A DNA stretch of 64,000 nucleotides from Hyphomicrobiales bacterium (GTDB taxonomy: Bacteria; Pseudomonadota; Alphaproteobacteria; Rhizobiales; Rhizobiaceae). The stretch lies in the NCBI GenBank assembly GCA_900473685.1, contig UCNE01000017.1, positions 62,001 through 126,000 of the forward strand, read 5' to 3'. The number at the start of each line of letters is the position of its first letter. Within the stretch, counting starts at the first letter, position 1. Made by a program: the position numbers and the translations under genes. The notes beneath the pieces are model-generated. The model saw nothing but the letters and a program-made list of their open reading frames with translations. It did no database searches and was not told where the DNA came from. This document shows, piece by piece, positions 19,471 through 57,588 of this stretch.

Positions 19471-19490
19471 TTTCGAGTGTGTGGAGGGTC

Positions 19491-19640
19491 ACCCCCCTCT
19501 GTCACTCCGTGACATCTCCCCCTCAAGGGGGGAGATTACAGAAAGCCCGAATTCTACCAACAGACGTTAGATAAGCACAACGTTTGCGGCTCATCTCCCC
19601 CCTTGAGGGGGAGATGTCGGCGTCGCCGACAGAGGGGGGT
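19491..19640. repeat. Rhizobial palindromic intergenic repeat, family A, copy 1
   Basis: A 150-bp element lies between the lactone oxidase and grpE. The terminal 13-bp inverted repeat is perfect (ACCCCCCTCTGTC / GACAGAGGGGGGT). Internal arms contain CTCCCCCTCAAGGGGGGAG at the left and its counterpart at the right, so the transcript would form nested hairpins. It resembles the mosaic repeats known from rhizobia (RIME-like); other copies are at 23671 and 55977. Confidence 0.85.
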
Positions 19641-19669
19641 TCCGCGGCACAAAGCCAGCCGACCGAGCC

Positions 19670-22406: not shown

Positions 22407-22521
22407 GCCCCTCATCCGCCCTATCGGGCACCTTCTCCCCGTCGTGACGGGGAGAAGGACCAGACGGCAATCTCTGTCGTCCCCTCTCCCCGCGTGCGGG
22501 GAGAGGGCCAGGGTGAGGGGC
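22407..22521. repeat. Rhizobial palindromic repeat, family B (double hairpin)
   Basis: A 115-bp element lies between rph and the VOC gene. The outer inverted repeat is GCCCCTCATCC / GGGTGAGGGGC. Inside are two near-perfect hairpins: CCTTCTCCCCGTC/GACGGGGAGAAGG (22431-22458) and CCCTCTCCCCGC/GCGGGGAGAGGG (22482-22507). Its right end provides the GAGGGG that serves as RBS for the next gene. Confidence 0.85.
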
Positions 22522-22526
22522 AACGC

Positions 22527-22946
22527 ATGGATAAGCTGAAATTCGAAGGCGTTCTGGAGACGGCGCTCTATGTTGACGACCTCGATGCGGCGGAGGCATT
22601 TTACGGCTCCGTTCTCGGCCTTGAGAAAATCAGCCGCGCGGGAAACCGGCATATCTTCTTTCGCTGCGGCCCCGGCGTTCTGCTGATCTTCAATCCGGCG
22701 CAAACGATCAAGCCGCCACCGGTTGATGGCTTGCAGGTTCCGCCGCACGGGACACATGGAAACGGGCATATGTGCTTGCGGGTCGCGAAAGGCCAGCTCG
22801 CGGCCTGGGAAGACAAGCTGAAGGCTGCGGGTGTCGCGATCGAGACCGATGTGCATTGGCCATCCGGCTCCCGGTCCTTCTATTTCCGCGATCCGGCTGG
22901 AAACAGCCTGGAATGCGCCGAAGCCAGTCTCTGGGCTATCGACTGA
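22527..22946 (+). CDS. VOC-family (glyoxalase/bleomycin resistance/dioxygenase fold) protein
   Basis: The 139-residue protein has paired beta-alpha-beta-beta-beta modules: [23 protein letters not shown] at the N-terminus and [19 protein letters not shown] at the C-terminus. The final Glu in ECAE is a usual metal ligand, and a His occurs in [10 protein letters not shown]. Substrate is unknown; members include lyases, thiol transferases and resistance proteins. ATG 22527 uses GAGGGG at 22515-22520, which lies inside the repeat. Confidence 0.85.
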
Positions 22947-38138: not shown

Positions 38139-39167
38139 ATGCAAACCACCCCTGGCATGGGTACGCCGAAACAAGCCGGGTTCCGCATGCCGGCGGAATG
38201 GGAACGTCATGAGCGCAGCTGGATGATGTGGCCGGCAAGAGCCGGGTTCTGGGACGATATCGCAGCAACCAAGCGCGACTATGCTGCCGTCGCACATGCC
38301 ATACGCGAATTCGAACCCGTCACCATGGCCGTACGGCCGCAGGATTCAGCAGAGGCCCGCGCGATGCTGGGCGGCGACATTAAGCTGGCGATCACCGAGA
38401 TCGACGATTCCTGGGCGCGGGATGCCGGCCCCTGCTTTCTCGTCAACGATCGCGGTGCGCTTGCCGGCGTCGATTTCAGGTTCAACGCCTGGGGCGGCAA
38501 ATATCAGCCGCATGACAAGGATGATGCCTTCGCCAGCTACGTGCTCGATCAGGCGAATGCCCAAAGGTTCAATTCGCGCCTCGTCGCGGAAGGCGGCGGC
38601 ATATCCGTGGACGGTGAAGGCACCATTCTCACCACGCAAAGCTGCTTTCCCAACATCAACCGCAATCCGGACTGGTCGCGAGACGAAATCGAACGCGAGC
38701 TGAAAGACATGCTCGGCGGCGAAAAGGTGATCTGGTTGCCGGGCAATCCGGAGGAAACCGAAACGGACGGTCATGTCGATGGCATCGCTACCTTCGTTGC
38801 GCCCGGTATTGTCCTGATCGAGGGCGCCGGCGATGCGCTATCCCCCTGGCACGCCATCAACCGGGCCAACATACGCGCACTCGAAGGCCAGACGGACGCC
38901 AAGGGCCGGCGCATCAAGGTGATCACGATCCCGGAAGCGGTTGAGGCCGAGGCTGCTGGTGACCGGTTTTGCCGGTCCTATGTCAATTCGTATCTGGTCA
39001 ATGGCGGCGTGATCATGCCGCGCTATGGCATCCGCAGCGATGACCTCGTGCGCGAGACGTTTGAAGCGCTTTTCCCTGACCGCCGCGTGCGTCAGGTGCC
39101 CATCGCCAATATCGCTGTCGGCGGCGGCGGCATCCACTGCATCACGCAGCAGCAGCCTGCGGCCTGA
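38139..39167 (+). CDS. aguA: Agmatine deiminase (cytoplasmic)
   Basis: The 342-residue guanidino-modifying enzyme converts agmatine to N-carbamoylputrescine and ammonia, in polyamine synthesis or arginine breakdown. Features are FRMPAEWERHERSWMMWP, EIDDSWARDAGPCF, AEGGGISVDGEG, and catalytic Cys334 in GGGGIHCITQQ near the end. ATG 38139 has GGAG six bases upstream and is preferred to ATG 38127. It is divergent from a LysR gene and followed 114 bp later by an exported paralogue. I see no N-carbamoylputrescine amidase in the window. Confidence 0.93.
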   Translation: MQTTPGMGTPKQAGFRMPAEWERHERSWMMWPARAGFWDDIAATKRDYAAVAHAIREFEPVTMAVRPQDSAEARAMLGGDIKLAITEIDDSWARDAGPCFLVNDRGALAGVDFRFNAWGGKYQPHDKDDAFASYVLDQANAQRFNSRLVAEGGGISVDGEGTILTTQSCFPNINRNPDWSRDEIERELKDMLGGEKVIWLPGNPEETETDGHVDGIATFVAPGIVLIEGAGDALSPWHAINRANIRALEGQTDAKGRRIKVITIPEAVEAEAAGDRFCRSYVNSYLVNGGVIMPRYGIRSDDLVRETFEALFPDRRVRQVPIANIAVGGGGIHCITQQQPAA

Positions 39168-39281: not shown

Positions 39282-40394
39282 ATGATGATGACACGGCGAA
39301 ATCTCTTGAAGCAGGGCCTGCTGGTTTCCGGAGGCATTGTTGCAGCACAGGCATTTGCAAACAGCGCCAACGCAGCCGGTGAGGCTCAGTCCAACACGTG
39401 GGTCATGCCCGACGAAGGGGCGCCTCATGCTGCGACATGGATGGCCTTTGGTCCCAGCGCTGACGTCTGGGGCCGCAAGCTGCTTCCCGTGGCCAGAGAA
39501 AACCTGGCGAGCATCGCCAAGGCGATTGCAGCGCACGAGCCCGTAAAAATGCTGGTGCGCGAAGAAGAATACGATATCGCAGCGCGCCTGTGCGGCCCTT
39601 CGGTAACGCTGGTGGTGCAGGAAATCGACGATTTGTGGATGCGCGACACCGGACCGGTGTTCGTCAAAAATCAGGCTGCGCAAGCGGGCGCCGTCGGCTT
39701 CAACTTCAACGGCTGGGGTGGCAAACAGGATTATGACAACGACGCTGAAGTCGCTGGTTTCATTGCCGAAACCGTGAAAACCCAATTCATCGAGACAGAT
39801 CTGGTGCTCGAAGGCGGCGGCATCGAGGTCGATGGCGAAGGCACGGCAATCATCACCGAAAGCTGCGTGCTCAACGCCAACCGCAACCCCGGCGTCAGCA
39901 AGGCGCGGTGCGAGGAGGAACTCTCCCGCCTGCTCGGCATTCGCAAGGTCATCTGGCTGCCGGGTATCGCCGGCATGGACATCACCGACGGCCATACCGA
40001 CTTCTATGCGCGCTTTGCCACGCCCGGCGTGGTCGTTGCCGGTTTGGACCTGGATCCGGATTCCTATGACCACGCCGTCACCAAACGCCATCTGGACATC
40101 CTGCGGCAGTCCACAGACATCAACGGGAAAAAACTGGATGTGGTGGTGCTGGAAGGCCCCTCAACTGTACGTAGGAAATACGAAAACAAGGATTTCGCCG
40201 CCGGCTACATCAATTTCTACGTTTGCAACGGCGCCGTCATCGTTCCCGAGTTTGGCGACCGGAAGGCCGACAACAATGCGCGCGACACGTTGCGGGACCT
40301 GTTCCCGGGCCGGGATGTCATCCAGTTGAACATTGACGGCATCGCCGCTGGCGGCGGCGGCATCCATTGCACGACCCAACAGCAGCCCGCCTGA
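39282..40394 (+). CDS. Agmatine deiminase-family protein with Tat signal (exported)
   Basis: The 370-residue protein has a twin-arginine signal (TRRNLLKQGLLVSGGIV, cleavage near SANAA at about residue 32) and the full deiminase fold: EIDDLWMRDTGPVF, LEGGGIEVDGEG, GHTDFYARF, and catalytic Cys363 in GGGGIHCTTQQ. It should act in the periplasm after folding in the cytoplasm. GAGGAG lies 5 bp before the first of three ATGs. It may degrade agmatine or a peptidyl-arginine-like substrate outside the cell; the cytoplasmic paralogue is directly upstream. Confidence 0.88.
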   Translation: MMMTRRNLLKQGLLVSGGIVAAQAFANSANAAGEAQSNTWVMPDEGAPHAATWMAFGPSADVWGRKLLPVARENLASIAKAIAAHEPVKMLVREEEYDIAARLCGPSVTLVVQEIDDLWMRDTGPVFVKNQAAQAGAVGFNFNGWGGKQDYDNDAEVAGFIAETVKTQFIETDLVLEGGGIEVDGEGTAIITESCVLNANRNPGVSKARCEEELSRLLGIRKVIWLPGIAGMDITDGHTDFYARFATPGVVVAGLDLDPDSYDHAVTKRHLDILRQSTDINGKKLDVVVLEGPSTVRRKYENKDFAAGYINFYVCNGAVIVPEFGDRKADNNARDTLRDLFPGRDVIQLNIDGIAAGGGGIHCTTQQQPA

Positions 40395-53363: not shown

Positions 53364-54491
53364 TCAGTCGCCATCGGCAAAAGAGAAACCCGAACTGAGC
53401 CCGATCGCAGCGCCAAAATCGAGATTGAGCCGCTGCAGAACGTTGTTAGTGTTTTGCAGAATACGGTTCAGCCTACCGCGCTGTTCGTCACTGGCAATCG
53501 CCTGCTCGACCGGCAGATCGATTTCGTCGAGGTCATCGACATTGGCCTGCAGCAGGTAATTGATCGCGCTGATCATGTCGCGGTTTCCGTCCGGCAGCAG
53601 TGCATCCATGCCGGCGGCATGGAACAAGGCCTGCAGTGCCGAAAAATTCGCAGACAGTGCCGGCATGGTATTGCCGGACCGCCAGTAGATGGCCATTTTC
53701 GGATGGCCCTTGTCCGGTTCGCCCTTGACGATACCGGCATAGAAAGGCCGCAGACGCTGGTCTCTTATGCTTTCGACGCCATGGACGAGAATGCCCAGCA
53801 GTTCGGTCGCCGCTTCCTTGCCATCACGATAGACCGGATTGTCCGGCCCCGGGCTCTTCCAGGCGGACTGGATGCCATCCGGCGTTTCCCATTCGGCGTG
53901 CAGTTCACCGGCCACGGCTTTCAGGTTATCGGCGATCGCAGCGCCATAGCGGCAGCGAAAGCCGTTTGTCTCGGTTGGCAATACCTCGGCTCCAGTGCCG
54001 TAAAGGACGTATTCCAGCGCGCCCAGCCCCTGTGCTGCAACGCTCTTGCCCTTCAGGCTTTCCGCAGAGGTGGCGGTTTCGTCATTGGTTGCCAGAATGC
54101 GCTGGACCTGCTTCAGACCGGTGCTCTTGCGATCCGGGAAAAACAGGAAGCGTTCGAACCGGTTGCCTTCGATAACCGGCCCGACACGGACGATCTCGAT
54201 CGTCGACCATTGCTGGACGACTTCGTCAAAACTCATCTGCACGTCGCCGAGCGTTTCATCGGACGGCTTTTCGCAGAGCGTATGGGCTGCCTCGGCCAGC
54301 GTTTCCGTACCCTCCAGCAGATCGCGGTAGCCAGGCCGGATGAAATCATCGACCGCCTTCTGCATGACACCCGGGACGGCATCCACGCGCAACCCGGCGC
54401 GCGGCGCGGCGGCCTCCTCATCTTCAGCCATTGCCGAAAATGGCAGGAAGGCAAGACTCAAGCCGAGAAGCAGGATATGCCGATGGCGCAT
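53364..54491 (-). CDS. Imelysin-family periplasmic protein (second copy)
   Basis: The 375-residue protein has a signal peptide (1-22, FSAMA) and the imelysin helical bundle: SFDEVVQQWSTIEIVRVGPV and GKSVAAQGLGALEYVLYG. The usual GxHxxE motif reads GLGALEY, lacking the His, unlike the paralogue at 56308. This variant group is encoded next to di-haem oxidoreductases and is implicated in iron acquisition. Its ATG overlaps the di-haem gene's stop by one base (TGATG). No further gene follows in this transcript before corA. Confidence 0.82.
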   Translation of the reverse strand: MRHRHILLLGLSLAFLPFSAMAEDEEAAAPRAGLRVDAVPGVMQKAVDDFIRPGYRDLLEGTETLAEAAHTLCEKPSDETLGDVQMSFDEVVQQWSTIEIVRVGPVIEGNRFERFLFFPDRKSTGLKQVQRILATNDETATSAESLKGKSVAAQGLGALEYVLYGTGAEVLPTETNGFRCRYGAAIADNLKAVAGELHAEWETPDGIQSAWKSPGPDNPVYRDGKEAATELLGILVHGVESIRDQRLRPFYAGIVKGEPDKGHPKMAIYWRSGNTMPALSANFSALQALFHAAGMDALLPDGNRDMISAINYLLQANVDDLDEIDLPVEQAIASDEQRGRLNRILQNTNNVLQRLNLDFGAAIGLSSGFSFADGD

Positions 54492-56257
54492 CAGAGAGAC
54501 TCCAGAAATGTGATCAGGGCTTGTCTATCGGCTTTTTCCAGCGCGGCAAACCGGTTGCGGGCTTTTGTTGCCTCGCCGCCATGCCAGAGGATCGCTTCCG
54601 TCAGGTTACGGGCGCGTCCGTCATGCAGGAAGAACGTATGGCCGCTGACTGTCTTGGTAAGGCCGATACCCCAGAGCGGCGGGGTGCGCCATTCGCCACC
54701 GGATGCAACGCCCACCGGCTGGCCGTCGGCCAGGCCTTCGCCCATGTCATGCAGCAGGAAATCGGAATAGGGCCAGATCAGCTGAAACGCATGCGCCTTG
54801 TTGGCGGCATCGCGGCGGGTGACGAATTTCGGCACATGGCAGGAAGCGCAACCGGTTTCGTAAAACACCTTCTTGCCTGCGAGCGTCTCGGCAAAGCTCG
54901 CCTTGCGCCGTGCCGGAACCGCCAGATTTTCCGAATAGAACGTGATGAGTCCAAGAACTGGATCCGGGGCTTCCGTATCGCCGAGGCGCGGCTGCACGCC
55001 GTCCGGCATCGCCAGACACGCTGTCTGTGCGGGCGTGCAATCGCCATGGCTGCGCCGGGCATCGGGCGACGAGATGCCGATATCGCCAGCCAACGCGTCG
55101 GCTGCCTGCTGGCGCACCGTTGGGCTCTGCGCCTTCCAGCCGAAACGGCCGAGCGCCAGTTTGCCGGATTGCGGGTCGCGGACCACGGGGATTTTTCCGC
55201 GGATGCCGTCACCATCCGCGTCCTGCGGATCGGCATTGGCGATGATATCAGCCGGGTGAATGGCTTCGATCAGACCAAGCCCCGACATCACCTGCGTGAC
55301 ACGCGGTGACAGCGTGGTCGTCGGATCGAGCGGCCCGTAACCGGGCTTGTCGATCGAATATTGCGGCTTGCGCAGGGAAACGATTTCCCCGCCCGCCAGC
55401 GTCACCGGCATTTCCGTATAGCTGATCCGCATATGGCCTTCTGCTGGCAGGCCGGGAACGGCGCTGTCTTGCAATTGCTGGCCATAGACGGGATCGGGGA
55501 AATTCAGCACCTCATGCGCGGCGATTGCCGCCCGTTCGGCATCGGTCTTTGGCGCTCGGGCAAGGCGCAGGAACATCGACGTCGCATCCTCCGAGCCTTC
55601 CGGCGGATGACCGCGGCCATCCTTCAGATGGCAGGTCTGGCAGGCGCGGGCATTGTAGAGCGGCCCCAGACCATCCGATGCCTGCGTCGACGAGGGAGAC
55701 GAGACCCAGAGCTTGCGGAACAGCGCATTGCCGAGCTTGAAACTCTCTTCTTCGGCAAAGGTGATGTTGGTAGAGAATTGCGAGAGAATGTCCTGGTTAA
55801 CGGACGCGATCGAGGTACCAGCCCCGCCGGACATGACTTCGAACTTTTCCGCCTTGGAAAAGTCAGTCGCCGGCCGGGTGACGGCCTCGACACGCGCTCG
55901 ATCAGCCTCGGTCAGGTCATCGCGGATGGAGGACAGCGGGAGAACTTCGGCAAGACTTTCCGTCTTGGCAGGCGGATTACCCCCCTCTGCCCTGCCGGGC
56001 ATCTCCCCCACAAGGGGGGAGATCGACGTGGCGACCTCTCGCCGATCCTCTTGCCCCGAGGTTCCCGTTATCAGACCTACGGACGTGGTGGCAGGCTCGA
56101 AGTCAATCTCCCCCCTTGTGGGGGAGATGTCCCGAAGGAACAGAGGGGGGTGAGCCGCCTGAAACAGGCTACCGCCAAAAACGGAAAAACCGCCCGCCGT
56201 TGTCAAAAACAGAACGGCAGACGGCAATATCAGGCGTCGGGCAGGCCAAGCACGCAT
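54491..56257 (-). CDS. Di-haem oxidoreductase (c-type, DUF1111/thiol oxidoreductase family) with repeat-encoded insert
   Basis: The 588-residue protein has a signal sequence (residues 1-34), an insert at about 36-93 encoded by palindromic repeat DNA, then the catalytic body with two haem motifs CQTCH (about residue 213) and CASCH. The C-terminus ends ATKARNRFAALEKADRQALITFLESL. Relatives are periplasmic cytochrome-c-like electron carriers or oxidases encoded with imelysins. The insert is in frame (177 bp between TTACCC and GGGTGA ends) and shifts no codons, so the protein is probably still made. Confidence 0.82.
   Translation of the reverse strand: MRAWPARRLILPSAVLFLTTAGGFSVFGGSLFQAAHPPLFLRDISPTRGEIDFEPATTSVGLITGTSGQEDRREVATSISPLVGEMPGRAEGGNPPAKTESLAEVLPLSSIRDDLTEADRARVEAVTRPATDFSKAEKFEVMSGGAGTSIASVNQDILSQFSTNITFAEEESFKLGNALFRKLWVSSPSSTQASDGLGPLYNARACQTCHLKDGRGHPPEGSEDATSMFLRLARAPKTDAERAAIAAHEVLNFPDPVYGQQLQDSAVPGLPAEGHMRISYTEMPVTLAGGEIVSLRKPQYSIDKPGYGPLDPTTTLSPRVTQVMSGLGLIEAIHPADIIANADPQDADGDGIRGKIPVVRDPQSGKLALGRFGWKAQSPTVRQQAADALAGDIGISSPDARRSHGDCTPAQTACLAMPDGVQPRLGDTEAPDPVLGLITFYSENLAVPARRKASFAETLAGKKVFYETGCASCHVPKFVTRRDAANKAHAFQLIWPYSDFLLHDMGEGLADGQPVGVASGGEWRTPPLWGIGLTKTVSGHTFFLHDGRARNLTEAILWHGGEATKARNRFAALEKADRQALITFLESL
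55977..56153. repeat. Rhizobial palindromic repeat, family A, copy 3 (inside a coding region)
   Basis: Ends TTACCCCCCTCTG (55977-55989) and CAGAGGGGGGTGA (56141-56153) with inner arms CTCCCCCACAAGGGGGGAG and its inverse match copies 1 and 2. Here it lies within the di-haem oxidoreductase gene, encoding about 59 codons without a stop in the gene's frame. The centre (about 56027-56100) is unlike the other copies. Confidence 0.85.
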
Positions 56258-56307: not shown

Positions 56308-57588
56308 TCATTGGAAGACGGCGTTAGGATTATCCAGGCTGTCGGAACCTTCAAGCTCGATCGTGCCGAGTTCCAGCGACGCAATGACGCGCTCGACCGT
56401 CTTTGCCTGAGCAACCAGGCCATCAATGGCAGCCTGAATGACGGCATTGCCCTCGGTGTTGCCTTCGCCGATCATCTGGTCGTACTTTTCGACCGTCTCG
56501 CCGCGCTTGGCCATGGCCTGCATCGCGGTGATGGTGGCCGCCAGCTTTTCCTTCATTTCCTTGTCGAGCGCCGGATCCTTGGCGGCAACGAGTTCGGACA
56601 ACGACGGGCCGGTCATCTTGGTGCCGTCGACCTTGGTGTATTCACCGAGATAGGCGGCCTGGATACCGATCGCGTCATGAAGATGCGAGTTGTAGGTATT
56701 GTCCGAGAAGCAATCATGCTCTTCTTCCGGATCGTGCAGAAGCAGGCCAAGCTTCATGCGCTCGCCGGCCAGTTCGCCATAGGAGAGCGAACCCATGCCG
56801 GTCAGGATGGCACCGAGGCCAGCCTTGGGATCGGCTTCGACATTCTTGGTGGCGGCGCCATCCGGCGTCCAGTTGGCAACCATGTCCTTCAGATCGGACA
56901 CGAGCAGATCGCTGGCGGCCTTCAGATAGGCGGCGCGGCGGTCGCAATTGCCGTTGGTGCAAGCCTTGGCGTCATAGTCGGTGTACGGACGATTGCCGGC
57001 GCCCGGGCCGGTACCGTTCAGGTCCTGCCCCCAGAGCAGGAATTCGATGGCATGGTAGCCGGTCGCCACGTTCGCCTCGATGCCGCCGGCTTCCTGCAGG
57101 GTGCCTGCCAGGAACTCTGGCGTAATGTTGGTCGCATCCACATCCTTGCCGTCGATCTTGATTGTCTTGTTGGCAATGACGTTGGCGGTGAACAGCGCGT
57201 TCTCGTCGCTTTCCGTGCCATAGCTCGGATCAACGTAGTCGATCAGGCCTTCATCCAGCGGCCAGGCGTTGACCTTGCCTTCCCATTCGTCGACGATCGG
57301 GTTGCCGAAGCGATAGACTTCGGTTTCCTGATAGGGGTTGCGGGCAGCAAGCCAGGCCTCGCGGGCGGCCTTCAGCGTCGCTTCGCTCGGTGTGGCGATC
57401 AGCGCATCGACGGCTTTGTTCAGCGCTTCAGCGGTCGAGAGTGCATCCGAGAATTTCGCATGGGCGACATCGGCATAGTGCTTGACGACGGCGGCTGCAT
57501 CGGTGGCGGCCTGCGCCGGCTGCAGCGCCAGCATCGACGTGGCAGTGGCAAGCGCCAGCGCGGCGCTGCGAAGGAATGATTTGGTCAT
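56308..57588 (-). CDS. Imelysin-family periplasmic iron-regulated protein (first copy)
   Basis: The 426-residue protein has a signal peptide (1-27, cleavage near AQAAT) and the full imelysin signature with GxHxxE in VATGYHAIEFLLWGQDLNGTG. It also has the conserved region GERMKLGLLLHDPEEEHDCFSDNTY and SHLHDAIG. Imelysins of this type (IrpA-like) act in iron uptake. CCAGGAGAGG precedes ATG 57588; a frame open to 57654 is not signal-like. A candidate Irr/ICE-type box stands about 150 bp upstream. Confidence 0.88.
   Translation of the reverse strand: MTKSFLRSAALALATATSMLALQPAQAATDAAAVVKHYADVAHAKFSDALSTAEALNKAVDALIATPSEATLKAAREAWLAARNPYQETEVYRFGNPIVDEWEGKVNAWPLDEGLIDYVDPSYGTESDENALFTANVIANKTIKIDGKDVDATNITPEFLAGTLQEAGGIEANVATGYHAIEFLLWGQDLNGTGPGAGNRPYTDYDAKACTNGNCDRRAAYLKAASDLLVSDLKDMVANWTPDGAATKNVEADPKAGLGAILTGMGSLSYGELAGERMKLGLLLHDPEEEHDCFSDNTYNSHLHDAIGIQAAYLGEYTKVDGTKMTGPSLSELVAAKDPALDKEMKEKLAATITAMQAMAKRGETVEKYDQMIGEGNTEGNAVIQAAIDGLVAQAKTVERVIASLELGTIELEGSDSLDNPNAVFQ

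Follow-up and report, generated by a model that had tools for sequence, protein, structure and literature searches.

A dispersed Rhizobiaceae palindrome in frame in a di-haem oxidoreductase and in other conserved proteins

A two-armed palindromic element lies within the gene of a di-haem oxidoreductase (DHOR), where it is in frame and separates the signal peptide from the protein body (window 55977-56154). The window is the whole stretch of DNA analysed, 64,000 nucleotides of a genome (G000) whose close kin are found among Pararhizobium and Rhizobium records. Judging from sequence comparison, a palindrome dispersed in the Rhizobiaceae very probably landed in the DHOR linker early in the genus, where it would be translated as about 59 tolerated residues. 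The insert is presumably neutral for the enzyme, and the conservation of its hairpin cores would most likely come from homogenisation of the repeat or from selection on the hairpin as DNA or RNA. The direct observations are the anatomy of the element, its dispersal, the empty sites in relatives, its recurrence in four further proteins and the low synonymous divergence of the cores.

The element and its host gene

The sequence-only reading had placed a palindromic repeat in frame inside the DHOR, between signal peptide and catalytic body. Both points are upheld, as two arms and a spacer lie within the 588-codon frame, the catalytic domain (PF06537) starts at residue 143 and the signal-like residues 1-35 lie upstream. 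The features of this locus, all on the minus strand, are the following:

54491-56257, minus: DHOR gene holding the element; 588 codons; PF06537, E=1e-91, residues 143-588
56153-56257, minus: native N-terminus, signal-peptide-like (residues 1-35), conserved in filled and empty orthologues
56106-56154, minus: arm nearer the gene start (inner hairpin and core 56106-56128), read as HPPLFLRDISPTRGEI
56024-56105, minus: spacer, 82 bp, 60-74% identity to the spacers of four orthologues
55977-56023, minus: second arm (inner hairpin and core 56001-56023), read as ISPLVGEMPGRAEGG
55985-56161, minus: 177 bp (residues 33-91) missing in three close relatives (G006, G007, G024); ends uncertain by a few bases
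56308-57579, minus: imelysin gene (PF09375), directly upstream of DHOR
53364-54491, minus: downstream frame of 375 codons, imelysin-like by eye; its start touches the DHOR stop

By eye, each arm is made of two stem-loops: an inner one, variable in sequence among the copies (GTCACTGCGTGAC, GTCCCTTCGGGAC, GTCGGCGACGCCGAC and others), and a core, which reads ATCTCCCCC-(A/T)CA-AGGGGGGAGAT. The insert, whose ends in DHOR can be fixed only to within a few bases, would be a REP/BIME-like dimer of two inverted units (~47 bp each) round a variable spacer; this description forms part of the explanation held very probable above.

The DHOR N-terminus carries a charge of +3 and its hydrophobic stretch begins at residue 9. 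Residues C206, C209, H210, C470, C473 and H474 are invariant among 37 aligned sequences. The contact between the DHOR stop and the next start, together with the imelysin gene before, is as expected of one operon. An AlphaFold model (37 aligned rows) reached a mean pLDDT of 66.2, with residues 1-104 (signal and insert) below 50; this is compatible with a loose linker, in a model of only fair quality where low confidence is no proof of disorder. A PDB search with the DHOR sequence found no solved relative. Elsewhere in the window, an 80-nt stretch at 38589-38668 recurs at 39810-39889, 1.2 kb apart and with 74% identity; the pair perhaps belongs to tandem paralogous genes.

Dispersal of the repeat family

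The DHOR repeat had been assigned to the same family (family A) as two intergenic copies near 19491 and 23671, and this assignment stands, with arms that are alike and spacers that differ. The two copies are:

19488-19641, no strand assigned: copy of the family A element, closed in all six frames; between listed frames of at least 180 codons
23670-23803, no strand assigned: copy of the family A element, closed in all six frames; between listed frames of at least 180 codons

Queried by BLAST with the 177 bp, G000 yields 81 matches at E<=0.001. The core pattern, with at most one mismatch, occurs at 40 places, one of them (C26) clearly unrelated, versus 0 for the reversed control. BLAST, arm scans and core pattern combined identify at least 22 two-armed family A elements in this genome. 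Across 20 of these 22 copies (L070 and L078 set aside), 44 of 120 element frames are open, so the open frame of the DHOR copy is weak evidence when taken alone. Six of 20 spacers have CATTCTTTTCCC or its complement in common, none of them from the four in-frame copies described below. Beyond this genome, the element is present in 185 of 72,556 plasmid records, chiefly of Rhizobium (74) and Sinorhizobium (70); among the best 40 of the 185, seven of which are unannotated, no annotated feature underlies the match. A search of G000 for a RAYT-type (Y1) transposase gave 0 PF01797 matches, the control having matched 5 of 14 known genomes.

Another palindrome, family B, is likewise dispersed, with 37 arms in G005, 42 in G001, 17 in G010, 13 in G000 and 1 in G006 (reversed controls, 0). 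A different palindromic repeat was seen at window 22409-22529, with arms TTCTCCCC..GGGGAGAA and CTCTCCCC..GGGGAGAG; a similar one is located at L071:147-267 of the same genome.

In-frame copies in other proteins

The search for family A in coding regions, which the sequence-only reading had proposed, located four of the 22 elements in frame in recognised genes: DHOR, CobN (PF02514, E=0; TIGR02257), FtsY (PF00448; TIGR00064) and UvrB (NF003673). For 15 of the remaining 18 elements (all but the two window copies and L069), one or more frames over or next to the element were scanned, and none shows a Pfam domain across it.

CobN was sampled in 38 genomes, nine of the genus and 29 of 98 other-genus genomes with a match (121 searched, 100 matched). 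The motif classifier used the tags A, B and short; tag C, which also matches family A peptides, was dropped. At place 1, the family A signature is found in 18 of 38 genomes, a short stretch (<=25 residues) in 16 and other sequence in four; at place 2, the numbers are 17 for family A, 17 short, two for family B and two other. These counts are no frequencies, as the sampling favoured long frames; each genome contributed one frame over both places, taken as the longest. Family A is also read in frame in the CobN of other genera, and two of the family B arms of G010 lie in CobN. In the solved CobN structure 9uk9, the 50 residues of G000 correspond to 2 residues. By eye, the units show the opposite arrangement in CobN site 2 and UvrB of G000.

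In FtsY, the family A signature precedes the GTPase domain in 20/20 genus rows and 0/5 outside rows (G013 and G018 left out). The C-terminal tail of UvrB carries it in 10/16 genus rows and 0/2 outside rows, counted over rows with a frame for the motif; the tail of G017 is without repeat-like sequence. UvrB tails (L269-L287) seem built of several repeat-like peptides across species, such as SPQRGEGARRADEG, DTHLPLEGGGRSEAAGGG and SSGLTRGS. The FtsY and UvrB linkers vary anyway, and for this reason they tell less than CobN or RibD. In RibD of G012 (L095:2419-3768, minus strand), a full family A element lies inside the reductase domain, which both Pfam and NCBIfam split into two stretches.

Filled, empty and refilled DHOR sites

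The DHOR site was sorted by eye in 25 genomes of the genus (G000-G024; a 26th, G160, is outside the sample). The element is intact in 11 of them (G000, G002, G003, G008, G009, G011, G015, G016, G020, G021, G022) and reduced to a remnant in three (G001, G012 with masked bases, G019). Four have other sequence at the site, repeat-like by eye (G004, beside a remnant arm, G005, G014, G017), and in the remaining seven the site is empty (G006, G007, G010, G013, G018, G023, G024). The insert of G005 belongs to family B; in this genome, two such arms occupy the DHOR site and two more lie in CobN.

In G006, G007 and G024, the matches to protein residues 1-32 and 92-588 abut with no base between them, i.e., with 177 bp less; in G010, the matches to residues 1-32 and 91-588 abut (174 bp less). 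The prediction that in repeat-free orthologues the signal peptide is followed at once by the segment near KTESLAEVLPL was checked in genus and outgroup orthologues and is correct. In the latter (Mesorhizobium, Mycoplana and others, apart from six listed loci without a single frame), the N-terminal region runs straight into DLS..DRARV.

A gene-body tree of 27 rows, built with the insert and G013 left out, gives the empty G006 and G007 as the closest rows to the window; G022 is filled in the same tree, G010 and G024 are empty. The body measures 1368 nt in 26 of the 27 rows and 1365 nt in one. For Root483D2 and P. polonicum, possible footprints of loss can be seen in the nucleotide alignment, and the empty sites of close kin look like losses in sequence comparison, some with footprints. 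The DHOR gene of G013 (L159; G013:C1:2323092-2324676) is split by frame breaks though its linker is empty; it may be an assembly error or a pseudogene.

The spacer is 82 bp long in eight of the 11 intact copies. Five of these eight spacers (G000, G022, G002, G021, G016) resemble one another at 60-94%; G020, G008 and G003 have spacers with 43-55% identity to these five and 51-67% among themselves, which weakens a purely vertical history of the insert. The genomes G008 and G016 (L039, L037), sisters on the tree, have 82-bp spacers only 55% identical, which would be a replacement at constant length. With such spacers in sister genomes, some inserts at least have been exchanged or replaced. The simplest reading of these comparisons is one old insertion in the genus, several in-frame losses and some replacement.

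Conservation as DNA and as peptide

The synonymous divergence (pS) of the hairpin cores is 4- to 28-fold below that of the gene bodies: 0.017 versus 0.468 in DHOR (10 rows), 0.110 versus 0.462 in CobN (nine rows) and 0.045 versus 0.378 in FtsY (13 of 20 rows). It is lower in the core in every pair (45/45 for DHOR, 33/33 for CobN, 78/78 for FtsY), pairs that are not independent, and 0/300 draws of body blocks were as low as the core in each of the three genes. The core pN/pS amounts to 2.66 in DHOR, 0.85 in CobN and 1.18 in FtsY, against 0.22, 0.15 and 0.20 in the bodies. Ungapped body codons were compared, and the peptide motif used to choose the cores tolerated one mismatch, a selection that keeps pN low. 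The hairpin cores of the three genes look conserved as DNA, with little sign of amino-acid constraint in the sequences. In the wider DHOR arms, pN/pS is 0.58 (five rows) or 0.76 (ten rows) for arm 1 and 1.74 or 1.01 for arm 2; weak amino-acid constraint on arm 1 would be compatible with these values. The pS of the DHOR spacer is 0.429 (five rows with alike spacers; body 0.476) or 0.468. It is like that of the body, indicating that the arms are not simply young.

The loop type of the core varies sharply from genome to genome, ACA in the clade of the window and TCA in many other genomes. Exact cores on both strands gave ACA/TCA counts of 30/2 in G000, 31/0 in G006, 2/52 in G016, 3/50 in G020 and 23/23 in G019, as if copies were homogenised within genomes. 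In the mixed genomes G008, G015 and G019, whose cores were listed in full, opposite-strand arms with exact cores at most 170 bp apart agree in 40 of 41 elements, where 19.7 disagreements were expected; such agreement would also be expected if new copies were made as units. By eye, the two DHOR arms share their loop type in 11/11 copies. Among the five genomes with alike spacers, both arms carry ACA in three genomes and TCA in the other two, which suggests, at the level of sequence, that the arms of the DHOR element changed jointly in place. Joint change is opposed by unlike loops within one element in CobN of G016 and in CobN of G015, and by neighbouring units of mixed loop type in FtsY of G008. 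Conversion, template switching and selection for pairing may each lie behind the pattern.

Alternative explanations

It is extremely improbable that the gene is misannotated, with translation beginning after or within the repeat and leaving it largely untranslated. According to PMC3733652, a large number of the REPs located at the N-terminus of an ORF may not be coding, and an ATG exists inside the second arm (the M of GEMPGR). Such a downstream start, named by the sequence-only reading as the case against its own view, is contradicted by the signal peptide conserved upstream of the repeat, which directly adjoins the body in orthologues with an empty site. Downstream of the insert the hydropathy is low, and residues 94-141 of the window DHOR contain no in-frame ATG, GTG or TTG, the first being ATG142 at the domain edge. 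A c-type haem protein needs an export signal, which would be lost with a start after the repeat or at the second-arm ATG; so the repeat would lie inside the DHOR coding region. Recruitment of the inserted peptide, kept for the function of the protein, would agree with its retention in 11 of 25 genus genomes and with the pN/pS of spacer (0.60) and arm 1 (0.58) in the five rows with alike spacers. We consider it very unlikely given the core ratios of 2.66, 0.85 and 1.18 in DHOR, CobN and FtsY against 0.15-0.22 in the bodies, the several lineages without insert, the other dispersed palindrome at the same place in G005 and the other sequence in G004, G014 and G017.

The hairpins might instead be kept for their action as RNA or DNA, for example in the stability of the operon mRNA or in protein binding, with translation as a by-product. 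The cores nearly unchanged at synonymous sites and the shared loop type of the arms (40/41 elements of the three mixed genomes, 11/11 DHOR copies) speak for this; yet the element is absent in 7/25 genus genomes, the unlike loops in CobN of G016 and of G015 occur within one element, and an Rfam scan of the window at gathering thresholds gave no match. The cores are uniform outside genes too, so nothing special to this operon is needed; we regard this explanation as unlikely. Alternatively, the site could be a hot spot hit more than once by separate insertions or replacements, in place of a single old insertion; this would account for the equally long and divergent spacers of G020, G008 and G003 and for family B at the G005 site. 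This appears decidedly unlikely in view of the 60-94% likeness of the other five spacers, their body-like synonymous divergence (0.429 vs 0.476) and the 82-bp length retained in 8/11 copies.

Proposed mechanism and significance

The preferred explanation, a tolerated insertion into the linker, is that a palindrome, which itself contains no coding gene, mostly lands in intergenic DNA, and that landings inside genes would survive only in frame and in tolerant places. Such places would be the linker after a signal peptide, the acidic arm of FtsY, the UvrB tail and the two-residue turn of CobN. In DHOR, the insert leaves both the preceding export signal and the following haem domain intact, and the enzyme is presumably still exported and folded. 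The peptide may then drift, being trimmed in steps of three bases or replaced; if only in-frame insertions and deletions survive, the linker erodes in three-base steps, and other palindromes can land at the same place. The conservation of the cores would most likely result from homogenisation between arms or genomic copies, or from selection on the hairpin as DNA or RNA.

More tentatively, and with somewhat more doubt than confidence, several Rhizobiaceae palindrome families may repeatedly make repeat-coded loops at fixed enzyme sites (CobN 1 and 2, the DHOR linker, the FtsY and UvrB tails), their arms co-evolving as DNA by arm-to-arm or copy-to-copy conversion. If true, a stretch of protein would owe its sequence to the maintenance of a repeat instead of to selection on the protein. 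Repeat DNA may in this way give rise to new protein loops. The presence of this arrangement in several conserved enzymes of soil bacteria that live freely, with filled, empty and re-filled sister sites, would make the idea of a passage from repeat DNA to protein directly testable in cultivable strains, and the low synonymous divergence of coding palindromes would provide a natural test of how repeats homogenise.

Comparison with known systems

The pattern can be read, from the sequences, as a tolerated in-frame spread in free-living Rhizobiaceae like that of the Rickettsia palindromic elements (RPE). The title of a paper from 2002 presents protein-coding palindromes as a feature that is unique to, but recurrent in, Rickettsia. 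As described in the available parts of PMC2229807 and PMC10969869, RPE measure ~100-150 bp, form several families and are found both between genes and in frame in unrelated proteins, where they are tolerated. Family A shares with them, as known here from its frames, the in-frame location within unrelated conserved proteins (DHOR, CobN, FtsY, UvrB, RibD). In contrast to RPE, which are not known outside Rickettsia and near kin, its host is a free-living member of the Rhizobiaceae with a 5.5-Mb genome. Family A also differs in being made of two short inverted units round a spacer, and in that different palindrome families can occupy one protein site; the two systems are likened by description, not by sequence. 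Palindromic repeats have also been reported in proteins of Wolbachia, a host-bound organism (cited in PMC2229807); the likeness lies in their being protein-coding palindromes of an alphaproteobacterium.

The GTAG/CGTC-tagged REPs are small palindromic units, mostly inverted dimers, some of which lie inside ORFs, including uvrB, and two Xanthomonas recB genes hold different REPs at roughly one position (both from the consulted sections of PMC3733652). Family A likewise consists of inverted dimers of short palindromic units; however, it has GTAG/CGTC near an edge, in either orientation, in only 1/20 copies, edges being taken as its own arm bounds. CobN, FtsY, RibD and DHOR are not named among the hosts in those sections, and, unlike GTAG REPs with a RAYT, family A occurs in a genome (G000) without a PF01797 match.

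Among rhizobial repeats, family A would likely be RIME (Rhizobium-specific intergenic mosaic elements) or a kin family. PMC2573895 treats RIME, like other palindromes of rhizobia, as intergenic. Family A resembles RIME as a dispersed rhizobial repeat and differs in being found also in genes. A literature search over titles and abstract starts, with most subscription papers beyond its scope, found no report of in-frame palindromes in rhizobia. In-frame palindromes as a kind are already known from Rickettsia, Wolbachia and some REP families.
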